Of a stretch of DNA of 41,307 bases, positions 13,405 to 36,847 are shown piece by piece (the first letter of the stretch is position 1; each line of letters starts with the position of its first letter). The translations under genes and the position numbers were made by a program. The notes beneath the pieces are model-generated. The model saw only the letters and a program-made list of their open reading frames with translations. It was not told the origin of the DNA and did not search any database. Source of the DNA: Hysterium pulicare CBS 123377 (lineage: Eukaryota > Ascomycota > Dothideomycetes > Hysteriales > Hysteriaceae); the NCBI GenBank assembly GCA_000467715.1, contig AJFK01000610.1, positions 1-41,307 on the forward strand, in the 5' to 3' direction.

Positions 13405-13839
13405 TCATGATGATTGAACCAAGAACCCGACCTGTTTGGATATTCCCCCAGAGAGTTCATTGCTTTTTTTTTCGGGCGTCCCGCAAGCTACCGAGCTTGT
13501 ACCCCACGAAGTCGAAAACGGGGCTTGTCGATCTCGGGGGTCCGCGTCGACGACCTCGACCATGTCCTGCTGATCACCTCCAGCTGGGTGCCCGAGATTA
13601 TCCTTCTGTGACGCAAGCTCATCCTGCTGCTGCATCACTCCAGCTCCCCCTTCCACTACTATCTTAGTCTCTTGCTGTTCCCACAAGTCAAGATACGGCC
13701 TGTGCCATGTCGAGAAGTATCTTGCAGCTCTTCTGGTGTGCGATCTCGAATTTGGGTCTAGTTGCGGTGTTTCGGCCAATAATGACTCCACTTGTTGCTC
13801 TTCCAAAGCCAAGCTAAGTTCTTTCGCCACAATAGCCAT
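13405..13839 (-). CDS. Hypothetical protein, Gln/Glu-rich
   Basis: A single open frame of 144 aa starts at ATG 13839. The same frame stays open upstream with DSGDDGWTDEN, so the true start may lie further up. The N-terminal third is helical and acidic (KELSLALEEQQVESLLAETP). Residues around 40-56 read RYFSTWHRPYLDLWEQQ, resembling the third-histidine part of a tyrosinase CuA site, but no other tyrosinase element follows. The C-terminal half is Gln/Asp-rich and probably disordered. The opposite strand is also open over 13407-13667, which weakens the call. It may be a fragment or a chance frame. Confidence 0.3.
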   Translation of the reverse strand: MAIVAKELSLALEEQQVESLLAETPQLDPNSRSHTRRAARYFSTWHRPYLDLWEQQETKIVVEGGAGVMQQQDELASQKDNLGHPAGGDQQDMVEVVDADPRDRQAPFSTSWGTSSVACGTPEKKSNELSGGISKQVGFLVQSS

Positions 13840-28064: not shown

Positions 28065-29170
28065 ATGTCAGCTGGCGCATCAACCAAAGGAATCGTGAAG
28101 TCCCCGAAGCCGTGCCGATATTGCGACAGCTGGGGATTCCACCAGCCACCGCCAAACGAGATTTACCCTCCGACAACAAGCCAGGACTGCATCCCCCTCG
28201 GAAACGGCGTCGAACTCTAGGCACCCTCTCCGAAAATCCTAGATGCCTACTCCGTGATTCCGCGCCTGTCGCGAAATCGAAGCCGACTCCCATGAATCCC
28301 GCTGCATCCGTCAAACGTAGACGCAGACGCCCGCGCAGGCAGACGGTGGACGGTGGACGATGGGCGAGACTGTGGACACAAACGGAGAGAGAGGGAGACG
28401 AATGGAGAGAGAGGGAGACGAATGGAGAGAGAGGGAGACGAATGGAGAGAGAAGGAGACGAGTTTGGATGGAGCAGGGCGAGGGCGGGCCTCAATCAGAG
28501 GCGCGAGGGCAGCCAAACTTGCTCTCCCGATCGGTTCAATATCTGCATCCATGGCTACATTTGCGAGAGGGAACTGCTGGGAAGTTTGCAGGCAATATTG
28601 GAGGCGGTGCAGAAGTTCAAGATGGAATCATTTCTAAGACGGCGATCTGGATGCGCCTTCGATGGAGTCTTGCTTCTACGCCTTGCAGAACGCTCCGCCC
28701 CTTCCTCCCCAGGGACTACGAGCACTAGAACCTCCAGGACCCCAAAAAGCCAATCCCGAGGAACTTCTCCAACCAAAAGGACGGTGTTGACGATGGAAGA
28801 GCTAGCGAGAATGAACCCGAAAGTACTATTCGAACCCATACGGGAAGCACGCGATTTGGGAATCGTCAGTCCGGCTTCGGCCGAGGGCCAGCCGCTAGAA
28901 ATGCCTGTATACGCTTGGGAGATCGAGGGGAATGCCTGGTTGCTTCATGTCGCCGCGGCGAAATTGACTGAGAAGGGGATGGATAGGCCGAACGTCTATT
29001 TCTTTGGTCCGATACGGCTTGGAGATACATCGAAGATGGATGACTGTCAGAGATTGCCAGCCAATTTGATTGATACTGCGAAGTGGGTGCAGAAGAGCTT
29101 TCGGTTGTGGTTCGAAGAGCAGAATGTCGCGAAACGCAAGGCCACGGGGCAGGCGGGTAAGGTGGAGTAA
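28065..29170 (+). pseudogene. Fungal PD-(D/E)XK-like protein, apparently lacking the nuclease core
   Basis: The likely original start is ATG 28065 (MSAGASTKGIV), but the sensible frame shifts near 28110 to one that stays open to the TAA at 29168. In that frame HPPRKRRRTLG and a second Arg-rich block KRRRRRPRR come first, then a 20-nt tandem repeat, then SRTPKSQSRGTSPTKR and MEELARMNPKVLFEPIREAR. It ends with PVYAWEIEGNAWLLHVAAAK, VYFFGPIRLGDTSKMDD and WVQKSFRLWFEEQNVAKRKA. A basic N-terminus, a SPTKR linker and this closing block resemble fungal proteins with a PD-(D/E)XK nuclease-like domain (PF20516, from memory). The stretch that should hold the catalytic core, between LFEPI and the closing block, is only about 20 residues. 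The frame break and missing core suggest a degenerate copy. Confidence 0.42.
28381..28460. repeat. 20-nt tandem repeat, four copies
   Basis: Four consecutive 20-base units close to AATGGAGAGAGAGGGAGACG, differing by single bases in the first and last copy. The unit is not a multiple of three, so each copy is read in a different frame inside the surrounding open frame, giving an Arg/Glu-rich segment. It interrupts a region that otherwise resembles a fungal nuclease-like family. Confidence 0.9.
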
Positions 29171-30749
29171 GGCATTCTATCTTGCAGAAACACATGTTAC
29201 GCACCAAATACTGTGATACATCGTGCAGCTTGATAACAGCCAAATCAAATGTGAAAGTTATAGCAAAGATGAGACAGGGAGAACAGAACCGAAGCGTCCG
29301 CGTGGGCGTCCGGAGGGTGGCTGGACGAGTTTCCAGCTCGGCTTTACGTGGATCAGAATCACCGACATGGAAAAGGATCCATCTGGCCATGAACAGGACG
29401 GAATCTTGGATCTCTATCACGTCCCTAGGGCTGTTGGACCTTCTGTTGAAATACTATCAGAGGTCATTGCTCTCATATCTCCAAACTGCACTCCCGGGAA
29501 TTATCGGATACCCTTGGCTTCCCTTTATAATCAATATACCGCAGAGCTCTCCGCGGTATACAAATAAAGGCACTAACAGCTTTCTTTATATGATTCATCT
29601 TGACGCCTAGCTTCCATATCGCTCCCCGGGTTGTCGCGTACCATGATCTCTCCATACTCAGCCGCAAGAAAACACTGTCCCGTGGGCTGCGGCACTTCCT
29701 GGTACCAGAACGTTACCTTCATCACCCTTGCCACCTTCGAATTGCGTCGCTTTACGGCGTTCAAACTTCGAGGAATACCCTCTCGAGGAGTCGGCTGGTG
29801 CATCTGATGGACTCATCATCCTTCTAATGGAGAATCCTACCTACGACCCAACGGAATCGCATTTAGATAAATCCCCCTCCCCACAGAACACGATCTTACC
29901 GGACTTAGGATTTTGCTTCCTGGATACCTAAACTGTCACGTTCACGCGGACATCGTTTCAAAACTAGAAATTCCGCACGCTGACCCGCCGCCATTTTCGA
30001 GCAGATGCTACCGCGATAACCGGAATTTCAAAGTTAACGGAATTACTATGGAAAACTCAACCATGACCACGACAACCGTGGCGAATTGTCGGACATTCAT
30101 CATTGCCAACCAGAGCACATGCTGCTGCATTAGTCAACGTCCAATCAGAGAGGCAAGGTCGGCGAATGGATTGAGAAGATGGTCTCAAGGCTCGAAACAT
30201 GGCTTCGGTACGATGGCCGGTATGACAGTTTTAAGCCATGTCTCACCCGAGGTGTCACAACCGTGGCACACCCTCCCACGCCTCACTGCCATCCTTGCTA
30301 CCCTATTTTCAATACCCACGATGGCCAGTATATCTACACTTACTCAGGCAAATTCATCTCCTTACCCATACATACCTCTACGTATGTGAGCCGGAGCTGC
30401 CCCTTCATCAAGTATGCCTATCAGCTACGAGTGAAACTATCTTCCGCAAGCTGATGAAAGCCCGCTGCACTAATGCAGCTTGCCAAATCAATGTCTCAGG
30501 CCGACGGGAACCTACAATTCACAAACAAGGACAGAAAGAAAAACATAGCACTCCCTCCCCGCACACTTCTCTCATCTCCGAAAACTCTACAACATGCACT
30601 GCGTGGTCCCTAAATTGCCTTGCCTTCTAAACTAAGTCACCTTATTCTCTGCTTCCTCCCCTACGTCAAACTCTCCTCAACAAATATCGTTCATTAGACC
30701 AGTGGTATCATTTTCCCACTCGACCTTTATTCTCTGGGTCTGTACTAAA
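29171..30749. other. Intergenic, upstream of the F-box gene
   Basis: No gene is supported. A plus frame at 29223-29567 (114 codons, no ATG start) and another at 29913-30389 are open but motif-free. A hairpin with perfect 8-bp arms TATACCGC/GCGGTATA and a 10-nt loop lies at 29535-29560, followed by an AAATAAAG that resembles a polyadenylation signal. The last 100-200 bases before 30750 presumably contain the F-box promoter; the start lies in ACTAAAATGCC, with A at -3. Confidence 0.4.
29535..29560. repeat. Hairpin with 8-bp arms
   Basis: TATACCGC pairs perfectly with GCGGTATA across a 10-nt loop that itself contains the palindrome AGAGCTCT. It is followed within a few bases by AAATAAAG. It could be part of a transcript end or be coincidental. 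Confidence 0.5.
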
Positions 30750-32471
30750 ATGCCTGGTTGCCACGGAGCATATGGTTGTCCTGGTGTCAAATGCTTCCTC
30801 TGCGCTGTCGTAGTCGATGTCCAACCGGAACATGTTGAGAACTTGCACAGGAGGATTTGTGAAGGCAATGACTTCGACGATGAAAAACTATCTTTTGCGG
30901 GGCAAATGCCATATTGGATGAAAAAGGCCTGCCTTATTGGAAAGCATCGAAACCCACCTCTCGGTAAGGCGGACGGCCGCAAATGTTTCGTATCCGGGGC
31001 TATCAAAGCAGATCACGCACGATTGCACGATTTCTATGTCGACAAGAGTGATGATCCATTGACACGCACGTTAGGGCCCGCGCCCGATAGCCCCAGATTC
31101 CAGGCGAGATGCTATGAGCACCCAGTACCTCAGGACGACATGTACCCAGAATCTTCCTATCCGGTTCATTTATCATGTCTTGAGGTTTTTTGCAATGCCT
31201 TTAGGCATGTCGTTGGCCTGGAGACGATGGAAACCGAATATGGCCGCTTCAACCCGTTTCAACATTTCTCCATGGACGAATCGAGGAACTCGCCGTGTGC
31301 TCCAGATAAAATCGCGGTAGACGCACTCCATGCCGCGATAAGTCATTACCATGGTGATGATCGACACCGTCTCGAGCTTGATTACGGCGAACTCCAGGAG
31401 TCCGCCTCCACTGCAACAGATCTATTGCCTCACAAGTTGACGGTCAGTTGATTGACTAGTTGTTCAACAAGATGTGTATACACGTACTAACAACTTTACA
31501 AGGCATTTCTAGTGGACCCGATGTACGGTCCAAGAGGCTTTTTATTCGATTATTACTTCAACGACTTGCCTCGCATACGTCCAGCAATGTTTGACTTTCA
31601 CTATCCCTTTGATGGGTGGCGGCACGAAGTCAAAGTCACGGAGATAGAAGAAGTCGAAGACTCGTTCTACTATCGAGTTGAACGAGCGGATCACCTTAGT
31701 CGCGCATTCGATTCTCCAGTCAACGTCAGCCCAACAACTCCATCATACCAGCCCCCCGATATTCCTAAGCGTTTCCTTGCTTTTCAGAAATTTCAGAATG
31801 CCAGCAAACTGCCTATACTACCGGCGAAGATCTGGCTACAAAATTACAGCTCGCTGCGGTTTCATCGGAAGCATCCACATAAACCTATGCCTCCTGAGCT
31901 TTCGAATCCACTTAGGCTGTCCTTCCGAACCGATCCCGATACTCCAAGTCGAGGCATGTCTTCGCGGAGTGGCACTATTTCTTTACCAGAGGAATTACTC
32001 GTGAAAGTCTGCGCATATCTGCCGGGGCCAGCGATAATGTCGCTGGGGTACTCGTGCAAATTCTTACACAGATTCTGTCAGGACGGGCTGATTTGGAAAA
32101 ACGCTTTGGCGCGAGATATGCCATGGCTCTGGGAGATTTTTCAATCTCCACATTACACCGAGGATGTATCCCCTTTTGAGTACGACTGGCAGCGAGTGTA
32201 CATGGACTTCGTCGCCGATGAAAACAATAGGCGAGCCGGCTCATGCTGGTTCCCAGGTCTCGCTAACCGGCAGCGAGTCTGGAAGATCGCAACGGAGCAG
32301 ATCCTGCCGCAATATTTCCGCTATCTGAAAGAACTCGAACGCGTTGGTAAGCGTGGCCCGTCTGACGATCAAGACGGTCCTTCAAGATCCGCGAAGAGAG
32401 CTCGAGTGGGCAGCTTGTGTAGCGAATCCAGTCGTGAGGGCATCGAAGCCGAGCAGGGTCGTGAAGCATAA
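30750..32471 (+). CDS. F-box domain protein
   Basis: Two exons, 30750-31442 and 31503-32471, give 553 aa with the frame kept. I chose ATG 30750 as the first in-frame ATG; an upstream GTG at 30702 is not a eukaryotic start. The N-terminus is Cys-rich (MPGCHGAYGCPGVKCFLC; Cys 4, 10, 15, 18), a feature of many ascomycete F-box proteins, and may bind zinc. The F-box is at about residues 389-437 (ISLPEELLVKVCAYLPGPAI, then SCKFLHRFCQDGLIWKNALA), with the usual LPxELL start, a central SL and a closing W. The tail is polar with a KRAR signal at 529-532. F-box proteins bind Skp1 and bring substrates to SCF ubiquitin ligases. No leucine-rich or WD repeats are seen, so the substrate is unknown. Confidence 0.88.
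31443..31502 (+). other. Intron of the F-box gene (60 nt)
   Basis: It begins GTCAGT, contains an exact TACTAAC branch site about a dozen bases before the end, and ends TTTACAAG. Removal joins ACG to GCA in phase 0 and removes the in-frame TGA that directly follows the donor (GTC AGT TGA). Confidence 0.85.
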
Positions 32472-35228: not shown

Positions 35229-36039
35229 ATGAACTCAAGCGACTTCACCACCCAACTCCTCCCATCATTCAGACAGATGAGGACAAGCCCGCAGGTCATT
35301 GGATCTAAACGACATCCCATCGTTATATCGGATGACGAAGACGACGCAAACCATGTCGCGAAGCCAGCGGGCCGTCGTCGCCAACTTCCTCCTCCAGGAA
35401 CTCAGATCGTGGTCATATCCGACGACGAGGATGATGGCGATGACCACAACTCTGCACACGGTAGATTGGCGGGCAATAGTACTGAGAAGGAAAATTCTTC
35501 CCACACATCTAATGATGTGAGCAATCCGTGCTCTCGCTGCCGATCTTCCCTTGATGCGGAACCGATGGTTCATTTCTTCCGTTGCGGCTGCGTATGATGT
35601 CCAATTTCCCTCTCATTTGGAGTTTTCAGCTTACACTCGCAGACAATTTGCAAGGGGTGCGATATGAACGTTCAGACTATTACTGGCAAAGAATGCCCCA
35701 ACCATCCAGATATGAGACGGCAGATCTCCTGTATTCTCTATGGAGACTTCAGTTGCCGTATCTGTTTCATGTCGAAATCGGATTTCAATGACGACGACCT
35801 CACAAACGATCCATCAAAAGATCGTGTGAGCTTATTGTGTGGTATGTCTAAAACAGTCACGGATTCCTCTCCAGACGCTGACCTACTTAGGGCACATGCT
35901 CTGCAGGGACTGTCTTCAAAGACATGCTCGAAATTACGAACGTGGCAAGCCTTTCCCCTGCCCGGAATGCCGGATGCTACACTACAATGAGAGCCAAATT
36001 GTCCGATCTGCTTACGCACATGTCCGAGCTCCTCGCTGA
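35229..36039 (+). CDS. RING-finger protein with tandem SUMO-interaction-like motifs (STUbL-like)
   Basis: Three exons, 35229-35591, 35643-35841 and 35891-36039, give 711 nt and 236 aa. The ATG at 35229 is the first in frame. Two near-identical motifs, PIVISDDEDD (30-39) and IVVISDDEDD (60-69), have the hydrophobic core plus acidic tail of SUMO-interacting motifs. A first zinc module follows: C101-x2-C104-x14-C119-x-C121-x2-C124-x2-C127-x11-C139-x2-H142. Then comes a canonical C3HC4 RING: C159-x2-C162-x24-C187-x-H189-x2-C192-x2-C195-x15-C211-x2-C214. SIMs followed by a C-terminal RING in about 240 aa is the layout of SUMO-targeted ubiquitin ligases such as Slx8/Rfp1, which ubiquitinate SUMO-modified nuclear proteins. 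That role is inference. The C7H module is unusual for them. The last 22 residues after the RING look unstructured, and a shifted frame there encodes a better helix. Confidence 0.88.
35592..35642 (+). other. Intron 1 of the SIM-RING gene (51 nt)
   Basis: It starts GTATGATG and ends CTCGCAG. Removal joins Cys121 to Thr122 in phase 0, restoring the C-x-C-x2-C-x2-C spacing of the first zinc module and removing an immediate in-frame TGA. Confidence 0.8.
35842..35890 (+). other. Intron 2 of the SIM-RING gene (49 nt)
   Basis: It starts GTATGTC and ends CTACTTAG, with CTGAC as a likely branch site. It splits the Gly188 codon, and splicing restores the C-G-H-x2-C-x2-C core of the RING, which strongly supports these borders. 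Confidence 0.88.
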
Positions 36040-36339
36040 TTAGGATTCCGGGTTGGAGTACTAATAGGCGATGGGCCATATGTTGGATAAGAGGCGACAA
36101 AGGGGAGAGGTGGGTGGGTTGGGAGGAGAGTGGAGATGAGATGGACATAACCAATTTGAATGCGCGTTTACGTGAGCTGTAGAATGGACAAGTTATTAGT
36201 TGGGCATAGGCTTTTCTCCTATCATGCCACGTTGGCACTAAACTTGAGACATTTTATCTCTCCATCCGATCTAAATAAGGTTACCATATTCCATCACTCT
36301 CAATAATCTGACGATTACCTCATTCCCTGCTGTCCTCAG
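36040..36339. other. Short gap between the two RING-type loci
   Basis: About 300 bases follow the TGA of the SIM-RING gene. Its 3' end resembles an intron end (AATCTGACGATTACC, then CTGTCCTCAG), just before the degenerate RING frame. I could not find an upstream exon with a start codon here. Confidence 0.5.
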
Positions 36340-36847
36340 GGAAGCGTGCAGACGTTCCTGAGATACCGACCTACGACGAGTTGATGACTCAACTTGAGCT
36401 TCTGCAATGCAACATCTCACATGCACCCTTCAAAAGCGACTCTTCCTCCGTTCGTACGCCTTGTGGACATGACCTCTTCCGCTTCAATCTCGAGAGCTGG
36501 TTCAAGGCGGGCGAAGAGATGTCGAATACTTGTCCTACCTGTCGAACATCCCTTTGGAAGATCGACATCCCTCCATCTACTCTGAGGCGGAAAGGCGTGA
36601 CTTCGTAAATCTTATGGAGGATCCCTGGAGGGTCACTTACCCTATCCCGAGCGTTGGCGGTGCTGCTATCGCAATAGTACACCTCATAAGCCGGTACCCA
36701 GCCGATGAAGAGCCCCTCGATAAGTTGCATAGTACCTTTTCCGGCATGGCTCAGCTAATGGTTGCCACGCACATCGACTCCGAACACCAGGATGATATGG
36801 ACCTCCCTTTTGTCCCGATATCTGTCTGTGGGGATTGTATTTGTTGA
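36340..36847 (+). pseudogene. Degenerate RING-like gene, frameshifted
   Basis: After a 3' splice-like CTGTCCTCAG, the frame reads KRADVPEIPTYDELMTQLEL, then LLQCNISH, VRTPCGHDLFRFNLESWF and SNTCPTCRTSLW. The pair Cys-Gly-His and Cys-Pro-Thr-Cys keeps zinc site 2 of a RING, but the expected C5 and C6 are Phe and Asn, so site 1 is lost. Near 36570 the frame must shift by one base to continue as SEAERRDFVNLMEDPWRVTY through HIDSEHQDDMDLPFVPISVC to a TGA at 36845; otherwise it stops at 36608. No start codon or first exon is visible. It may be a decayed neighbour or duplicate of the SIM-RING type, or a diverged one-zinc RING with one sequencing indel. Confidence 0.5.

Follow-up and report, generated by a model that had tools for sequence, protein, structure and literature searches.

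SUMO-targeted ubiquitin ligases (STUbLs) connect SUMO and ubiquitin in genome upkeep, and in the parts of the literature on which we draw here they are defined by the combination of a SUMO-interacting motif (SIM) with a RING (PMC8161396). The SIM consensus is given as a four-residue core of the form hXhh or hhXh with flanking acids, such as the SIM of PML, in which VVVI is followed by serines and acids, and that of Daxx, IIVLSDSD (PMC8616421). RNF4 is described as mostly monomeric and inactive until dimerised by SUMO chains (PMC3991395), and its S166W substitution as bypassing dimerisation (PMC8161396). Here we analyse a gene in a window of 41,307 nucleotides, which is the whole of contig C431 of a 37.2 Mb genome in 596 contigs, whose short introns and gene content lead us to infer a fungal source. 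We read this gene, tentatively and with slightly less than even confidence, as encoding a RING E3 ligase, present in one copy and probably nuclear, which would follow the STUbL plan and reach SUMO through its acidic N-terminus and ubiquitin through its RING.

The gene spans 35229-36039 of the forward strand in three exons, its two introns being 51 and 49 nt long, with a predicted spliced product of 236 residues (Table 1) and an in-frame TAA two codons upstream of the ATG. Near the 3' ends of introns 1 and 2 lie the branch-like sequences CTTAC and CTGAC, respectively. Allowing intron lengths of 40-120 nt left 35 frame-open two-intron models, and we examined the eight with common donor types. 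A rival model of equal length, with an intron at 35826-35874 (GTGAGC...CCAG), loses the RING ligand C187, and on donor and branch motif we prefer, by eye, the splice model proposed in an earlier note on this DNA. Scored by the codon preferences of 65 long open frames from the same genome, 27,338 codons in all, the spliced frame reaches +18.1 bits, compared with -5.0 and -4.1 bits for the other sense frames (6 and 12 stops) and 4.2, -16.1 and -8.0 bits for the antisense frames of the gene. This coding signal is modest and comes mostly from exon 1 (13.3 bits, against 2.9 for exon 2 and 2.5 for exon 3, the last being tied by another frame), and the codon score alone is not decisive because one frame in the 600 bases downstream of the gene reaches 10.8 bits despite 12 stops. 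At the level of sequence, the two short introns and the protein length that the earlier note had put forward are supported.

Table 1. Coordinates of the predicted gene and its features in the window (residue numbers refer to the spliced product)
Feature	Position	Strand	Residues	Remarks
SIM-like motif 1, PIVISDDEDD	35316..35345	+	30-39	three-residue hydrophobic core, no strict hhXh/hXhh match
SIM-like motif 2, IVVISDDEDD	35406..35435	+	60-69	SIM consensus matched
Exon 1	35229..35591	+	1-121	both acidic motifs; ligands C101, C104, C119, C121
Intron 1	35592..35642	+		51 nt, GTATGA...CTTACACTCGCAG; acceptor GCAG; predicted from sequence
Exon 2	35643..35841	+		remainder of C7H module and first part of RING
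Intron 2	35842..35890	+		49 nt, GTATGT...CTGACCTACTTAG; acceptor TTAG; phase 1, Gly codon of CGH; predicted from sequence
Exon 3	35891..36039	+		remainder of RING, C-terminal tail, stop TGA
C7H module	35529..35705 (intron 1 inside)	+	101-142	ligand spacing
C3HC4 RING	35754..35970 (intron 2 inside)	+	159-214	Pfam zf-RING_UBOX, zf-C3HC4; hhalign 97%

The ligands of the C-terminal RING are C159, C162, C187, H189, C192, C195, C211 and C214, with a first loop of 24 residues. It clears the Pfam cut-offs of zf-RING_UBOX, with 27.9 bits where 25.2 are required, and of zf-C3HC4, with 24.3 where 21 are required, and misses those of zf-RING_5, zf-C3HC4_4 and zf-RING_2; compared by hhalign with 16 aligned RINGs of the same genome, it obtains a probability of 97%. 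Ile161, Pro212 and Arg215 are present, of which we take the first to be the E2-contact position and the last to be the linchpin; with these residues, two Pfam cut-offs and the hhalign result behind it, the canonical C3HC4 RING that had been read here by eye stands. The best matches of a PDB sequence search with this RING were TRIM25 (E 0.0003) and TRIM69, and RNF4 matched at E 0.2. We rejected a TRIM protein, in which a B-box follows the RING, as a candidate: here the Cys/His module comes before the RING, and the six Pfam matches up to E 10 include no B-box family. NCBIfam gave no match to the protein up to E 10. Four residues after the sixth RING ligand lies His199, at a position occupied by Trp in 45 of 69 RINGs, and in 9 of 21 when the fifth ligand is Cys; these 69 were found by ligand pattern in fetched loci and are not a fair sample of the genome. 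Because His199 stands where Trp is common, at what we presume to be the counterpart of RNF4 S166, whose change to Trp bypasses dimerisation, it is plausible by analogy that the window RING is dimer-dependent. As a separate observation, 19 of the same 69 pattern-found RINGs from fetched loci, which again do not sample the genome fairly, have Gly as their fifth zinc ligand (CGHxFGxxC type).

Ahead of the RING, C101, C104, C119, C121, C124, C127, C139 and H142 are spaced C-x2-C-x14-C-x-C-x2-C-x2-C-x11-C-x2-H, the order and spacing of a cross-brace RING, with Cys where the first His would stand and a His closing the series. This C7H module depends on the first splice, since C121 and T122 lie on either side of intron 1. 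Residues 93-158 match a generic RING ligand pattern, as do 7 of 200,000 shuffles of that stretch, and Pfam zf-RING_5 aligns with residues 101-142 at E 0.042, covering positions 2-39 of its 43 and scoring 14.3 bits against a cut-off of 27.9. With hhalign, the module scores 3.9% against the 16 same-genome RINGs and its reversed-sequence control 4.4%; 9 of 100 full shuffles score higher (top 79%), and 100 ligand-keeping shuffles average 6.9% (top 61%). A PDB sequence search with residues 101-142 returned no match up to E 10. Given its ligands, this stretch is likely to be a second zinc-binding fold of RING-like layout; as a RING it is no more than a candidate, the profile evidence being weak or negative. 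The eight-ligand RING-like module of the earlier note thus keeps its ligands and spacing but fails to beat the hhalign controls, and the profile search that the note had called for lifts the C-terminal RING over two Pfam cut-offs but leaves residues 101-142 under that of zf-RING_5. Because position 103 is Arg (Ile in E2-binding RINGs) and the linchpin position, 143, is Pro, we would not expect the module to engage an E2 in the manner of a catalytic RING. PHD, FYVE and IBR readings of the stretch were set aside on ligand spacing, by rules that we assume for these folds.

The starts of the two acidic motifs lie 30 residues apart. Under the strict form of the consensus in PMC8616421, motif 2 fits and motif 1, with its three-residue core, fails, so that of the two SIM-like motifs originally proposed the second stands as a PML/Daxx-type motif and the first does not pass the strict test. 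Shuffling residues 1-99 produced at least one strict motif in 36 of 100,000 cases and two in 0 of 100,000; among 106 other frames of at least 200 codons, a comparison in which some loci had been fetched because they bear the motif, five carry one and none carries two. The broad SIM consensus is found in 17 of the 106 other frames, twice in two of those, and once in the window protein. We also searched the 37.2 Mb genome with a DNA pattern of three V/I/M codons, then S/T/C/W/R, then D-D-(D/E), Leu not being allowed, which occurs at 11 places, compared with 3 for the reversed pattern; by this pattern there is no second close motif pair elsewhere in the 37.2 Mb. Motifs of the VISDDED type also occur in other proteins of the same genome. 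The motif pair is unusual in the genome; a single SIM-like motif is not. Where the two motifs share codons (eight), six third bases differ and no first or second base does, which argues that the pair would be an old duplication or a convergence and not a recent copy. Elsewhere in the genome, a DNA cytosine methyltransferase frame (PF00145) on contig C109 (L034) ends in a C-terminal tail, VIVISDDEDP, of the same SIM-like type.

We rejected the gene as the Slx8 orthologue, for which a better candidate, which we take to be Slx8, lies on contig C68 (L081). That gene was found with an Slx8 probe together with family searches, and it carries YVDLTAD and IEEIDLVDEEDD motifs and a RING (CVICMDSPTNITATACG/HLFCHTC...CPVCRKAI) over Pfam cut-offs. 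The window is absent among the 18 listed matches of the probe, and its RING is not especially close to that of Slx8, which ranks 20th of 71 in global alignment. Intron 2 of the window gene and the RING intron of Slx8 fall at the same base, in phase 1 of the Gly codon of CGH, the one link between the two genes and a possible hint of descent from Slx8. As proof of kinship this is weakened because two further RING genes, which we take to be Hei10-like (L082) and Rbx1-like (L083), are also split at this codon, the former in phase 2 and the latter in phase 0; moreover, the four RING genes split at CxH were half-RING matches or the study subject itself, and are no fair sample. Searching the gene's own genome returned no paralogue, the three matches being its own exons (2 first-look candidates). 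Pattern searches picked out 87 stretches in viral contigs and 594 in those of bacteria and archaea, none of them confirmed as a relative, which is what one would expect of a fungal gene. An exon on contig C95 (L084) is SUMO-like, an identity that we presume, as we do the name Uls1-like for the frame L070. The best reading of the window gene is an extra, diverged RING E3 of STUbL plan, not the Slx8 orthologue.

The surroundings of the gene hold further frames. Just downstream, at 36312-36608 (+), lies a RING-like frame that has CGH and CPTCR but carries Ser as its second ligand and is without the Cys of ligands 5 and 6. Over 78 residues it shares 47% identity with a frame in the C31 RING cluster (L017) in which these ligands are likewise missing, so together the two look like a diverged half-RING subfamily in which one zinc site has been lost. 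Clustered RING families occur on contigs C290, C31, C440, C426 and C232 (L013-L024), and zf-RING_2 has at least 104 matches genome-wide. Two adjoining frames at 30702-32471 (+), the first without a Pfam match and the second F-box-like (31.6 bits, cut-off 24.3), may together make up a single F-box gene in the neighbourhood of the RING gene. The window also contains a 352-codon frame at 28112-29170 (+), with a short Arg/Glu-rich repeat of EREGDE type and an under-cut-off match to PDDEXK_12 (E 0.052), and a 144-codon frame at 13405-13839 (-), perhaps one exon, whose short match to tyrosinase stays below threshold (E 0.0074).

As a ligase on the STUbL plan, the protein would bind SUMO through its acidic N-terminus, mainly by IVVISDDEDD with the weaker motif at residues 30-39 assisting, and would in this way collect clients that carry SUMO, perhaps as poly-SUMO. 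At the C-terminus, the C3HC4 RING would take E2~ubiquitin and pass ubiquitin onto the SUMO-marked client, and the C7H module, predicted to be non-catalytic, may serve folding, dimerisation or client choice. The sequence contains the parts by which a STUbL is defined, a RING and at least one SIM by consensus, SUMO binding being a prediction from them, and the placing of the motifs ahead of a C-terminal RING agrees with the definition in PMC8161396. In favour of this plan we counted the RING features, motif 2, the rarity of the motif pair and the SUMO-like exon; against it we counted the commonness of the broad SIM consensus, the VISDDED motifs elsewhere, a RING that is not near Slx8 and matches RNF4 only at E 0.2, and a genome already equipped with a presumed Uls1-like frame and an Slx8-like gene. 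Of the STUbL candidate first proposed, SIM-like motifs before a C-terminal RING are supported and kinship with Slx8 is not. Some of the same observations make it quite possible, if somewhat less likely, that the protein is a RING E3 whose N-terminus does not bind SUMO at all, with VISDDEDD serving localisation, kinase docking or the binding of basic proteins and with clients chosen through residues 101-142: the motif type recurs in unrelated proteins of the genome, motif 1 fails the strict consensus, and the similarity of the RING shows no preference for Slx8. Two near-identical motifs 30 residues apart before a RING are rare in this genome, however, and motif 2 resembles the SIMs of PML and Daxx (PMC8616421), both of which speak against that explanation.

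The small size of the protein, with SIM-like motifs and a RING as in Rfp1 and Rfp2 (whose sizes we assume for this likeness), raises the possibility of a partner subunit of the Slx5/Rfp1 kind, itself non-catalytic, that brings SIMs to an Slx8-like protein by RING-RING contact. The genome does contain an Slx8-like gene, and intron 2 shares its base with the Slx8 RING intron. We nonetheless think a partner subunit unlikely, as the E2 Ile and the linchpin Arg are kept in the window RING, and we know of no C7H counterpart in Rfp1 or Slx5. None of the 16 ligands is missing, the frame is unbroken, each intron keeps its splice sites, and the spliced frame scores positive where the other sense frames score negative, which leaves it very improbable that the gene model is spurious or decaying and that RING fragments have been joined by chance in a region with another diverged RING piece; such an origin would draw on the weak coding signal of exons 2 and 3, the stop-laden downstream frame, the lack of a paralogue in the genome search and the RING-like frame missing three ligands just downstream. 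What keeps the partner subunit in consideration is the account of Rfp1 and Rfp2 as lacking E3 activity and recruiting Slx8 via RING-RING interaction (PMC8161396). Returning to the ligase on the STUbL plan, one extension of it, improbable in our estimation, is a single-chain STUbL in which the non-catalytic C7H module would be a built-in dimer partner of the active RING, with no need for SUMO-chain dimerisation or an Rfp1/Slx5 subunit.

Should the SIM-like motifs and the second zinc module hold, the gene would make it possible to explore whether a STUbL can carry its partner RING within the same chain, and the fungus would have a SUMO-reading ligase besides its Slx8-like and Uls1-like genes. 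Should SUMO binding fail, it would be another RING E3 in a RING-E3-rich genome.

Among described systems, none of the papers listed by literature searches announced, in its title or the opening of its abstract, a STUbL from a fungus that adds a zinc module or carries RINGs in tandem, although one may exist in print. Two RING-type modules in one chain are also found in this genome in L054, which we take to be CrgA-like (CrgA/LONRF-type), a family with a LON domain; its module starts are 174 residues apart, and it matches the window protein at E 0.028 at best, short of significance. Rad18 has its RING near the N-terminus, unlike the window protein, and a frame that we presume to be Rad18-like occupies a separate locus (L045). 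The likeness to yeast Rad18 is one of principle, a SIM steering a RING E3 to a SUMO-marked client (PMC3526273). RNF4 shares with the window protein its N-terminal SIMs and C-terminal RING, the latter being a weak PDB match, and Rfp1 and Rfp2 of S. pombe are likewise SIM-reading RING proteins, whereas the portions of both sources that we cite for them mention no zinc module between SIM and RING (PMC8161396, PMC3827193). Slx8 of the same genome also places SIM-like motifs before a C-terminal C3HC4 RING and shares the phase 1 RING intron at the Gly of CGH, but it is a separate gene with different motifs (YVDLTAD and IDLVDEEDD), a first RING loop of 11 residues compared with 24 in the window RING, and no C7H module seen, the window protein setting its two acidic motifs and its RING to either side of one.
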